Assembly (NCBI RefSeq): GCF_020405225.1
Contig: NZ_CP084472.1
Span: forward strand, 2,170,001-2,234,000
Reading direction: 5' to 3'
DNA length: 64,000 nt
DNA from: Natrinema sp. DC36
GTDB taxonomy: Archaea; Halobacteriota; Halobacteria; Halobacteriales; Natrialbaceae
Below the pieces are notes generated by a model that saw only the letters and a program-made list of their open reading frames with translations, had not been told where the DNA came from and did no database searches. The position numbers and the translations under genes are program-made. The stretch's first letter is position 1, and every line of letters starts with the position of its first letter. Of this stretch, positions 29,529-32,933 are shown one piece after another.

Positions 29529-31349
29529 TCATAGCTGGTCCTCCGTCAGTGCGAACTGACCGTTGTCGCCGCCGCTTGGCACCATCGGGTAGACGTTGGC
29601 GTCGGGATCGATATGAACGTCGATTACCGACGGGCCGTCGTAGGCGATCGCGGCGTCGATCGTTTCGGCGACGTCGTCGTAGTCGTCGATCCGGTAACCG
29701 CTCGCACCGAAGGCCTCCGCGAGCTTGTCGAACTCGGGCATCCAGTGGTAGTCCGACGCGGAGTGACGGCCGTCGAAGAAGGCGTCCTGCCACTGTCGGA
29801 CCATGCCGATGTACTCGTTGTTGAGCACGGCGACCGTGATGTCGAGGTTCTCGCGGACGGCGACCGACAGCCCCTGCAGCGTCATCAGGAACGAGCCGTC
29901 GCCGTCGATGCAGACGACCTCCTGATCGTCGTCGGCCGCGAGTCGCGCGCCGATCGCCGAGGGCAGCCCGTAGCCCATCGTCCCGAGCCCGTGACTCGAG
30001 ACCCAGGTGCGGGGCTCGGTGTAGGTCCAGTACTGACAGGCCCACATCTGATGTTGGCCGACGCCGGTGGTGACGATCGCTCGGTCGCTCGTGGCCTCGT
30101 CGAGCGCCTCGACGACGAACTCCGGCTGGACCGGCTCGTCCTCGGGCGCGTCGTAGGCCATCGAGTAGTCGGATTTCCACTGCTGGCACTGGGCGCGCCA
30201 CTTCGTTGCTTCTGGCGCGGCGTCGACGGCTTCGGAGAGCTGCTCGACGACCGTTTCGGCGTCGCCGACCAACGGGTAGTCCGCGTGGATGTTCTTCGAG
30301 ATCTCCGCGGGGTCGATGTCGACGTGGATGAGCTCCGCGTCGGGCGCGAAGGTCTCGATCCCGCCGGTCAGCCGGTCGTCGAATCGGGTCCCGATCCCGA
30401 TCAGCGTGTCGCAGTGGGTGATCGCCATGTTGGCGTAGCCGGTGCCGTGCATGCCCGCCATCTCGAGGGAGAGTTCGTGATCCTCGGGGAACGCGCCGAT
30501 GCCGGGCATCGTGGTGATGACCGGGATCTCGTGTTCGATGGCGAACTCGCGGCAGGCCTCGCTGGCCTCGCCCTTGATGACGCCGCCGCCGAGCAACATG
30601 GCAGGGCGGTCGGCGTTCTCGATCCGCTCGGCCGCGGCCGCGACGATCTCCGGATCCGCACGTTCTTGCACCTGATAGGTGTCAGGAACCTTCGGATCGT
30701 CGGGCTCGCGGTCGGTCTCGCCGTTCGTGATGTCTTTGGGCAGGTCGACCAGGGTCGGTCCCGGCCGGCCCGCGCCGGCGAGCGCGAACGCCTCGCTGAC
30801 GTCGCTGCCGACGCGATCCGAGTCGCTCGCGAAGGTGTTGTCCTTCGTGATCGGCGTCGTGACGCCCGTGGTGTCGGTCTCCTGGAATGCATCGTTGCCG
30901 ACGAACTCCGTCGGGACCTGCCCCGTCAGCGCGAGCAGCGGATCCGAGTCCATGTCGGCGTCCGCGATGCCGGTGACGAGGTTTGTCGCGCCCGGCCCCG
31001 ACGTCGCGAGGCAGACGCCCGGCTCGCCGGAGACGATGCCGTAGGCGTCGGCCGCGTGGGCCGCGCCCTGCTCGTGGGCCATCGTCACGTGACGGATGTC
31101 CGAGTCGTAGAGCGCGTCGTAGACGGGCATGATCGCCCCGCCCTGAACGCCGAAGGCGTACTCGACGCCCGCGTTCTCGAGCGCGCGAACGACGGCTTCT
31201 GCGCCCGAGGTGACGGGATCGAGCGTCGTGTCAGCGTCGCCGGCCGCCGCGTCGTCCTCGGTGGCCGCGTCGGGTGCGGCGCTGTCTGTGATCTGGTCGT
31301 CGTCCTGTTCGTCGTCCGGTGGTGAGACCTTTGCTGCGCGTTCGCTCAT
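29529..31349 (-). CDS. ilvB: acetolactate synthase large (catalytic) subunit
   Basis: A 606-aa thiamine diphosphate enzyme making acetolactate and acetohydroxybutyrate. The N-terminal TPP-site Glu is in MAHEQGAAHAADAYG, substrate and FAD regions follow (SGPGATNLVTGIADADMDS, FQETDTTGVTTPITK), and the TPP/Mg motif GDGSFLMTLQGLSVAVRENL with NNEYIGMVRQWQ is intact. About 45 acidic residues precede the catalytic fold. A leader peptide candidate lies upstream at 31474-31560. Co-transcription with leuA is possible but the 323-nt gap suggests its own promoter. Confidence 0.94.
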   Translation of the reverse strand: MSERAAKVSPPDDEQDDDQITDSAAPDAATEDDAAAGDADTTLDPVTSGAEAVVRALENAGVEYAFGVQGGAIMPVYDALYDSDIRHVTMAHEQGAAHAADAYGIVSGEPGVCLATSGPGATNLVTGIADADMDSDPLLALTGQVPTEFVGNDAFQETDTTGVTTPITKDNTFASDSDRVGSDVSEAFALAGAGRPGPTLVDLPKDITNGETDREPDDPKVPDTYQVQERADPEIVAAAAERIENADRPAMLLGGGVIKGEASEACREFAIEHEIPVITTMPGIGAFPEDHELSLEMAGMHGTGYANMAITHCDTLIGIGTRFDDRLTGGIETFAPDAELIHVDIDPAEISKNIHADYPLVGDAETVVEQLSEAVDAAPEATKWRAQCQQWKSDYSMAYDAPEDEPVQPEFVVEALDEATSDRAIVTTGVGQHQMWACQYWTYTEPRTWVSSHGLGTMGYGLPSAIGARLAADDDQEVVCIDGDGSFLMTLQGLSVAVRENLDITVAVLNNEYIGMVRQWQDAFFDGRHSASDYHWMPEFDKLAEAFGASGYRIDDYDDVAETIDAAIAYDGPSVIDVHIDPDANVYPMVPSGGDNGQFALTEDQL

Positions 31350-31469
31350 CGATTGCCTCCCGCCGGTGTGCGGCGATCGGGTGGTGTACGGTAGTGTGTC
31401 ATCTGCTGGGGTAGTGATCGCTCGGAGAACGATGCGGATTCCGGTCCGAAGCTACGAGGTACTGAAAAT

Positions 31470-31560
31470 GGGGCTAGAACGCCCCTACAATACGAATCGG
31501 AGCGAGCGCGCTGGTGCCGACCGTGCGAACGCGAGCCGACAGGGGAGCGCGGACCGTCAT
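31470..31560 (-). promoter_or_regulatory. candidate leader ORF and terminator-like hairpin before ilvB
   Basis: On the minus strand, AAGGATTATG (about 31588-31598) resembles a TATA box some 30 nt before an ATG at 31560. It opens 28 codons ending TAG at 31474. Eight of the 28 residues are Val, Leu or Ile, with I-R-I-V just before the end. The stop lies inside a GGGGC/GCCCC hairpin (31470-31485) followed by ATTTTC. This is the layout of ribosome-mediated attenuation for a branched-chain operon. The gap 31350-31672 holds no other feature. Confidence 0.45.
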
Positions 31561-31672
31561 TACTGTCTACGTAGCTCCCTCGAGGGTCATAATCCTTACG
31601 AGTCGCATCTGTCCGTCCGATCGAGCGCGACAGCAGGGGCTCGCGGCCGGTGGCAAACGGTGAAGACATTCC

Positions 31673-32906
31673 TCAGGCGCGCACCTCCTCCTGATCCTGC
31701 TGGCGTTCGACGCCAGCCTCTTCGGCGAAGCGCTCGAGGATGTCGACGGTCACGCGGCGCTTCTCGGCCCCGTAGTCCTTGACGCGGCGGGTGACCGCCC
31801 TGACCTGCTCGTCGGTGGGGTCGAAGCCGCACTCGACGAGCCGCTCCCGGACCGAGTGGGTGCCGGTGTGTTTCCCCATGACGAGCTTGCGCTCGGCACC
31901 GACCATCTCGGGGGTCATGACGCCGGGTTCGAAGGTGTCGGAGTTTTCGATGACGCCGGCGGCGTGGATGCCGCTTTCGTGGGAGAAGGCGTTGTCGCCG
32001 ACGATGGGCTTGTTGCCCGGCGTCGCCATTCCGCTCTTCTCTTCGACGATCTCCGACAGTTCGGTGATGCGCGTCGTGTCGATCCCCGTATCGCACTGGT
32101 AGAGCGACTCGACGGCCATCACGTACTCCTCGTAGGCGGCGTTGCCGGCCCGTTCGCCGATGGAGTTGACCGACACCTGCGCCTGAGCCGCGCCGGCCTC
32201 GATACCGGCCAGCGCGTTGGCGGTGGCCAGCCCGAAATCGTCGTGCGTGTGAACGTCGACCCGCGCGTCGGTGTGGGCACAGACCTTTTCGATCATGGCC
32301 CGAAAGCGGGTCGGCGTCGCGACGCCGCACGTGTCCGGAATGTTGATCCAGTCGGTACCAGCCTCGGTGACCGCTTCGATGACCTCGAGCAGGTACTCCT
32401 CGTCGGTTCGAGTCGCATCCATCGGCGAGAACATGCAGGTCGCGCCCGCCTCCGTGATGCGTTCGACCGAGTCGACTGCGCGCTGTACGACTTCCTCCCG
32501 GGTGGCGTGCATCGAATCCTCGATCTGGACGTCGCTGGTGGACACGAACGTGTGTACCATCTCGACGCCGGAATCGAGCGCCGCTTCGATGTCACCGTCG
32601 ACGACGCGGGCTAACCCGCAGGTCGTCGAACTGGTGGACGAAGCGATATCACGAACGGCCTCGAACTCCGCGTCGGAGTTGACGGGGAACCCGGCCTCGA
32701 TGACGTGGGTTCCCATCTCGTCCAGGATGGACGCGATCTGCCGTTTGTCGTCGTAGGAAAACGATGTGCCGGGCGACTGCTCGCCGTCCCGGAGGGTCGT
32801 ATCGAAGACACGTGCTGACTCTATTTCGTCAGTGGAATCTAACGTGCCCTGGAAGAACTCGACCCCCCTGATTGGTATCAGAGGATGGGCTGTCTTGTGA
32901 AGACAT
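31673..32906 (-). CDS. leuA: 2-isopropylmalate synthase (LeuA-type), start disrupted or unusual
   Basis: A DRE-TIM metallolyase that condenses acetyl-CoA with a 2-oxo acid. Motifs are VFDTTLRDGEQSPGTSF, HTHDDFGLATANALAGIEAG, SVNSIGERAGNAAYEE and NAFSHESGIHAAGVI. At about 420 residues it lacks the C-terminal allosteric domain, so (R)-citramalate synthase is an alternative. The start is a problem: a strong TATA box (about 32934-32941) sits 30 nt before an ATG at 32906, but that ATG is one frame off. Losing one G from the G6 run at 32863-32868 would join it to VEFFQGTL. Otherwise the frame opens to an ATG at 33013, upstream of the TATA box. Confidence 0.88.
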
Positions 32907-32933
32907 TGTATCTGAACCCGAGGTGCGACGAGA

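Follow-up and report, generated by a model that had tools for sequence, protein, structure and literature searches.

A conserved short leader ORF with a GTA codon abutting a hairpin upstream of ilvB and valS in haloarchaea: a candidate ribosome-based attenuator

Throughout the class Halobacteria, a short open reading frame (ORF) whose valine codon GTA directly abuts a hairpin precedes ilvB, and the same arrangement recurs before valS. We consider it likely, from the comparison of these sequences, that it works as a leader-peptide attenuator across the whole haloarchaeal class, sensing charged tRNA-Val at both genes and also tRNA-Ile at ilvB. The comparison shows the ORF, the GTA codon and the hairpin in a fixed order at both target genes; ribosome stalling, the direction of control and the output step are what we infer from this arrangement.

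Leader locus in the window

The window (the whole stretch of 64,000 nucleotides analyzed) belongs to a Natrialbaceae-like haloarchaeon, and an IlvB similarity search gave Natrinema as its closest named matches. On the minus strand lie, in this order, the genes that we take to be leuA, ilvB, ilvN and ilvC; the names were assumed from the sequence and, for ilvB, also from the ilvB-ilvN-ilvC order. The leader sits between leuA and ilvB, with the following features.

31589..31592, minus strand: TATA-like element TTAT, putative leader promoter, 32 nt upstream of the leader ATG
31474..31560, minus strand: leader ORF MTVRAPLSARVRTVGTSALAPIRIVGAF, 28 codons, from ATG (31560-31558) to TAG (31476-31474) inclusive
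31486..31491, minus strand: candidate control codons ATT GTA (Ile24, 31491-31489; Val25, 31488-31486)
31470..31485, minus strand: hairpin GGGGC-GUUCUA-GCCCC, starting directly after GTA, with arms at 31485-31481 and 31474-31470 and a loop of 6
31346..31402, minus strand: second short ORF MTHYRTPPDRRTPAGGNR, with a TGA stop that forms ATGA together with the ilvB ATG
29529..31349, minus strand: ilvB, acetolactate synthase large subunit, the putative regulated gene, assigned from its ORF, its relatives and the presumed name

An earlier sequence-only reading had described most of this layout. It had placed a leader ORF of 28 codons about 30 nt past a likely promoter, and both were found, the ATG at 31560 on the minus strand and TTAT 32 nt before it. 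The GGGGC/GCCCC hairpin that it reported about 120 nt before ilvB is also present: the leader TAG falls in the loop and 3' arm, ATTTTC comes next after the hairpin, and the exact distance from the leader stop to the ilvB ATG (31349) is 124 nt. A purine-rich GGGAGG precedes the ilvB start. The hairpin alone folds at −10.2 kcal/mol, and a terminator scan returned it as the single site (shuffled sequences gave 0.2 ± 0.5).

The same reading had counted 8 Val, Leu or Ile among the 28 codons. The count is correct, but it is no enrichment over the genes of the window (18.8%, P = 0.14), and neither Leu nor the overall content is conserved in relatives. The whole leader folds no better than its shuffles (z = 0.11). 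Judged from the single window sequence, the leader is unremarkable and makes a weak case. The ordinary composition and folding energy would suit a functionless coincidence of hairpin and ORF in one genome; this explanation has next to no probability in our view, as it is contradicted by the presence of the leader in 79 of 80 named loci and 377 of 391 genomes and by its recurrence at valS, as described below.

Conservation upstream of ilvB

We compared 80 named haloarchaeal loci that had been chosen by IlvB similarity and not by the leader. A short ORF ending in Ile/Val-Val-Gly-Ala/Val plus 0–5 residues was found upstream of ilvB in 79 of them, and the 80th (L077) has merely 60 nt of upstream sequence, too little to read. 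The genera covered include Natrinema, Natronorubrum, Natrialba, Haloarcula, Halorubrum, Halobellus and Salinarchaeum, among others. At the DNA level, all 79 loci read an Ile or Val codon, GTA GGGG(C/T) and then CCCC; the codon preceding the invariant GTA is an Ile codon in 78. The spacer between GGGG and CCCC measures 8 in 70 loci, 6 in five and 5 in four. Counted from the Ile codon, the ORF ends after 4 codons in 14 loci, 5 in 56 and 9 in nine. Where the leader stop is shifted downstream (9 of 79 loci), the hairpin arms are retained. The sequence-only reading had proposed that related genomes be compared for conserved Val, Leu or Ile codons and for a hairpin with variable sequence in between. 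The ORF and the hairpin were indeed retained before ilvB in these 79 of 80 loci, with the arms kept and the loops varying; as for the codons, GTA (Val) and the Ile before it are conserved, but Leu is not.

The bare pattern GTAGGGGYN{3,8}CCCC has 13 matches in the entire 5.1-Mb genome of the organism itself. The leader is more than chance because it is conserved, in 79 of 80 IlvB-selected loci as against those 13 genome-wide matches. When these stretches were read on their other strand, the pattern matched in 2 of 79, where the near-palindromic element may have been read from the other side. A covariance model (R1) built from 52 rows, with genome matches counted at E ≤ 0.01, matched 377 of the 391 genomes of class Halobacteria and 80 of its 86 genera. 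Of the 14 class genomes that R1 did not match, 13 carry a close ilvB and one (G380) carries only a distant homologue. When a looser pattern was applied to those 13, it recovered the leader in seven and found none in five readable genomes that have ilvB; the match in G264 stops short of the gene start. Outside the order of the window, weak R1 hits occurred in 6 of 124 genomes. Seven stretches were inspected as candidate leaders outside the class and rejected, being chance-like matches within other genes or at the end of another gene.

In an alignment of the promoter region, TTAT is kept in 24 relatives. Four of the 79 loci have no TATA-like string; in 72 of the other 75, the motif is read in the frame set by the first ATG 22–48 nt past the string, and in 58 of the 75 the element lies 32 nt upstream of the ATG. 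Changes in the ORF body are not biased towards codon position 3 (52, 64 and 63 by codon position), as expected if only its length and control codons matter, and the stop-free frame is no proof of coding, another frame being equally open in 79 of 79 loci. The case for coding is therefore based on the start, the frame and the ending.

A second target, valS

The genome of the window carries a second copy of the leader, a short ORF ending in SVGFVGAP (TTC GTA GGG GCT CCG TAG CCCC), 138 nt before a gene recognized by eye as, presumably, valS (valyl-tRNA synthetase). Other pattern matches in this genome were considered as further copies and set aside, since they lie in long frames or outside the arm/stop register; only the ilvB and valS copies fit. 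Among 80 genomes with ValS, the valS upstream region was read in 70 (10 were left out), and 38 of these 70 have a valS leader, about 130–225 nt from the gene. Leaders were absent from the other 32, mainly family f4 and genomes with a ValS of only about 44% identity, and a looser search of these 32 added one dubious locus. As the searches demanded GTAGGG, the presence of GTA at valS is by construction. The preceding codon was Phe in 28, Val in six, Leu in two and Arg in two of the 38 valS leaders, and Ile in 82 of 87 ilvB leaders. No other observation hints as strongly at what may be sensed: the residue ahead of GTA appears to track the need of the gene, Ile and Val at ilvB and Val alone at valS. 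A leader common to ilvB and valS suggests that a single signal is sensed, charged Val-tRNA.

In a separate observation, a strongly conserved block, TTTCGACGGATGTATTGT..CCGACCAG..ATTCACCGA..CAACGACC, lies between the hairpin and valS downstream of valS leaders (L166-L194).

GTA codon and peptide ending

GTA is the rarest Val codon: the ilvB genes of these loci contain 3535 Val codons, of which 12 are GTA. In the genome of the window, 30 of 46 tRNA loci were read, and they include one tRNA-Val(UAC) gene. The control codons comprise a single Val and one or two Ile, with no run of them. No Leu codon is conserved in the 79 ilvB leaders, and Leu sensing is unsupported. The three positions of GTA are paired in 27, 16 and 32 of 52 rows; with partners so often mismatched, pairing does not explain the invariant GTA. 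The putative sensor, as it emerges from this comparison, is one rare Val codon, with Ile ahead of it at ilvB, in a predicted regulon that extends to valS.

The ending of the peptide bears on whether the ribosome might instead be stalled by a nascent C terminus (..IVGA) responding to a small molecule and not to tRNA charging. An ending conserved beside the stop, together with a leader stop within the hairpin, would fit such an arrest peptide. In a GGGG-based stem, however, the GGG GCN arm dictates Gly-Ala after Val, and apart from Val and this arm-encoded Gly-Ala we found no conserved C-terminal peptide, the endings including FVGAP, VVGAS, RVGAS, IVRAR, RVRAAMAH and FVGPL. Leaders with a shifted or altered arm retain GTA, but have Arg right after the Val (IVRAR, RVRAAMAH) or Pro at the position after that (FVGPL). 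Arg can thus follow GTA, and the distance from Ile to the stop is variable (4, 5 or 9 codons). We regard the arrest peptide as highly improbable.

Hairpin pairing and downstream sequence

A stem of at least 4 bp begins 0 nt (121 leaders) or 1 nt (4 leaders) after GTA in all 125 leaders, a count that is partly by construction as the search patterns demanded GGG..CC. Loop length varies among leaders and stem pairing is maintained. Arms of the GGGCC/GGCCC type replace GGGGC/GCCCC, with both arms changed, in five valS and three ilvB leaders; in genomes G095, G019 and G085, the valS arms are changed and the ilvB copies are still GGGGC/GCCCC. The ilvB set by itself shows no covariation above shuffles (59 of 500 shuffles reach it), because its GGGG/CCCC core never varies.

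That invariant core at ilvB, and a near-palindrome at two pathway-related genes, could also mean that GTAGGGG..CCCC is a palindromic DNA operator, a transcription factor site for branched-chain genes to which the ORF is incidental. Several features make this reading highly improbable. The spacing of the arms differs (5, 6 or 8), and the ilvB and valS arms of one genome can differ, which would be difficult for a DNA-binding protein common to both sites. Although the GTA side does not vary, its three positions pair in only 16–32 of 52 rows. Moreover, GTA shares its frame with the ATG nearest the promoter in 72 of 75 loci, and all 79 loci have a stop no more than nine codons on.

The sequence-only reading had also seen the hairpin as terminator-like, followed by ATTTTC. 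The comparison did not support a U-tract terminator: runs of at least four T occur within the next 24 nt in only 7 of 79 loci, the T-rich tail being peculiar to this leader and a few others, so there is no conserved U tract. In the 30 nt downstream of the hairpin, C makes up 40%, T 26% and G 15%. A structure search of 20 sequences found no helix competing with the hairpin, that is, no conserved antiterminator.

Two further structures were noted. A CGCGCU/AGCGCG helix lies inside the leader ORF (window 31507-31551, minus strand; A2 columns 10-15 and 49-54); it is present in most of 20 Natrialbaceae, with no covariation, and could be a pause-like element. A GGGGGCGCTAGCCCCCC hairpin occurs at G000:C1:2934148-2934162, 14 nt before a gene that by eye resembles that of V-type ATP synthase subunit D.

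Proposed mechanism and output

Transcription would begin just upstream of the leader ATG. Since the TATA-like element mostly lies 32 nt before this ATG, and initiation some 25 nt past the element would put the 5' end almost at the ATG, the mRNA is expected to be leaderless or nearly so, and leaderless mRNAs are the usual state in haloarchaea (PMC3986360). The ribosome would read about 20–30 codons and then reach the rare ATT GTA (ilvB) or NNN GTA (valS) abutting the 5' arm. When GTA occupies the A site, the ribosome shields about a dozen downstream bases, which here correspond to the whole 5' arm. If Val (or Ile) were scarce, the ribosome would stall with the codon in the A site and its footprint over GGGGC, no hairpin would form, and ilvB or valS would be expressed. 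If Val were ample, the ribosome would reach the stop and depart, the hairpin would fold, and downstream expression would fall. Because the control codons abut the arm, a separate antiterminator would be unnecessary; the stalled ribosome would itself act as the anti-hairpin.

The output is most likely premature transcription termination, or otherwise a block of translation of the second ORF and ilvB. In Haloferax volcanii, 59% of transcripts stopped in vivo at a hairpin that comes from a coding region, a lower efficiency than that of T stretches (PMC7237163). FttA favours U-rich RNA (PMC11616081), which counts against termination at this C-rich tail. The lack of a conserved U tract likewise leaves room for the same sensor to have a translational output, with the hairpin or the released ribosome gating the second ORF and switching ilvB by coupling. 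The GGGAGG before ilvB would fit this possibility, as would the second ORF, which overlaps the ilvB start as ATGA in 53 of 55 readable loci; these 55 are the loci whose match start begins with ATGA, and 24 more are unreadable, with the ilvB start elsewhere or no ATGA. Translational coupling from this ORF to ilvB is possible. Yet valS lies about 130–225 nt behind its leader, the ATGA overlap was counted at ilvB only, and haloarchaeal hairpins are able to terminate transcription (PMC7237163). We treat a translational output as a possible but rather unlikely alternative to termination.

The start of leuA

A search for leaders at the neighbouring gene led to a comparison of leuA starts in 77 loci (76 of the 79 named loci and the window). 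The relevant features of the window are listed here.

32829-32911, minus strand: leuA start region, with an out-of-frame ATG ORF MSSQDSPSSDTNQGGRVLPGHVRFH (ATG at 32906, stop ending at 32829)
32865-32884, minus strand: hairpin CCTCTGAT-ACCA-ATCAGGGG in the leuA leader, at a run of six G

In all 77 loci, the ATG ORF leads to an invariant TCGAGTTCTTC (zero frame CGA GTT CTT C[C/A]A GGG); relative to this ORF, leuA is read in the +1 frame. An ATG in the leuA frame was found in just two of the 77, and leuA seemingly has no usable start of its own. The hairpin has matching changes in Natrialbaceae (CCTCTGAT..ATCAGGGG versus CCTCTGAC..GTCAGGGG). An atypical start of HVO_1510 (leuA2) has been described by Pfeiffer and Dyall-Smith (2021), who proposed that translation begins either at a CTG in frame or, with slippage, at an ATG out of frame, and who speculated on leucine dependence (PMC8305020). 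Of these two options, our counts would point to the out-of-frame ATG, followed by a programmed +1 frameshift on or close to the Leu codon CTT. They suggest leucine-linked +1 frameshifting at leuA, an idea partly anticipated in print (PMC8305020). The HVO_1510 case concerns the same pathway and an adjacent gene, but it is a recoded enzyme start and not a separate leader, and the discussion of that start does not mention ilvB or valS leaders (PMC8305020). Whether the ilvB and valS attenuators and a leucine-linked +1 frameshift at leuA together form an ancient, class-wide archaeal regulon based on ribosome sensing in cis is, in our estimate, an even call.

Relation to known systems and significance

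Leader-peptide attenuation, a textbook example of bacterial control, needs coupled transcription and translation, and bacterial ilvL/ilvB leaders are ribosome-mediated transcription attenuators of branched-chain operons. The haloarchaeal leader resembles them in being a short leader ORF that contains branched-chain codons and precedes a biosynthetic gene, in the hairpin at the end of the ORF and in the presumed stalling switch. It differs in that one rare Val codon touches the hairpin in place of a codon run, in being archaeal, likely leaderless and also present at valS, and in that no conserved U tract or antiterminator was found. The bacterial attenuator layout recognized by the sequence-only reading holds for a leader ORF with control codons beside a hairpin before ilvB, but not for a U-rich tract behind the hairpin. 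Unlike the trp/his layout, the haloarchaeal leader has control codons that touch the hairpin, so that the ribosome itself could be the anti-hairpin; lacking a conserved U-tract terminator, this leader is not classed here as a trp-type attenuator, though it would work like one. T-box leaders are bacterial and sense uncharged tRNA. Their targets are similar (amino-acid synthesis genes and aminoacyl-tRNA synthetases), whereas in the haloarchaeal leader the translating ribosome would be the sensor. An Rfam scan of window positions 31000-32000 gave two matches, neither of them a T-box and both far below gathering scores.

The uORF of Corynebacterium ilvBNC is an example of a branched-chain attenuator (PMC10272879). 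We found no report of archaeal amino-acid leader attenuation in a literature search whose scope left out most subscription papers and all bioRxiv preprints. By analogy, the logic looks like that of bacterial attenuation, a kind of control known mainly from bacteria that here appears to be archaeal.

Disruption of ilvB1 (HVO_1508) in H. volcanii causes auxotrophy for Val, Leu and Ile (PMC4300041), and the idea of a sensor is directly testable in this species. The extent of transcription-translation coupling in archaea is still debated (PMC8116511), and a conserved archaeal attenuator would give a natural genetic read-out of that coupling.
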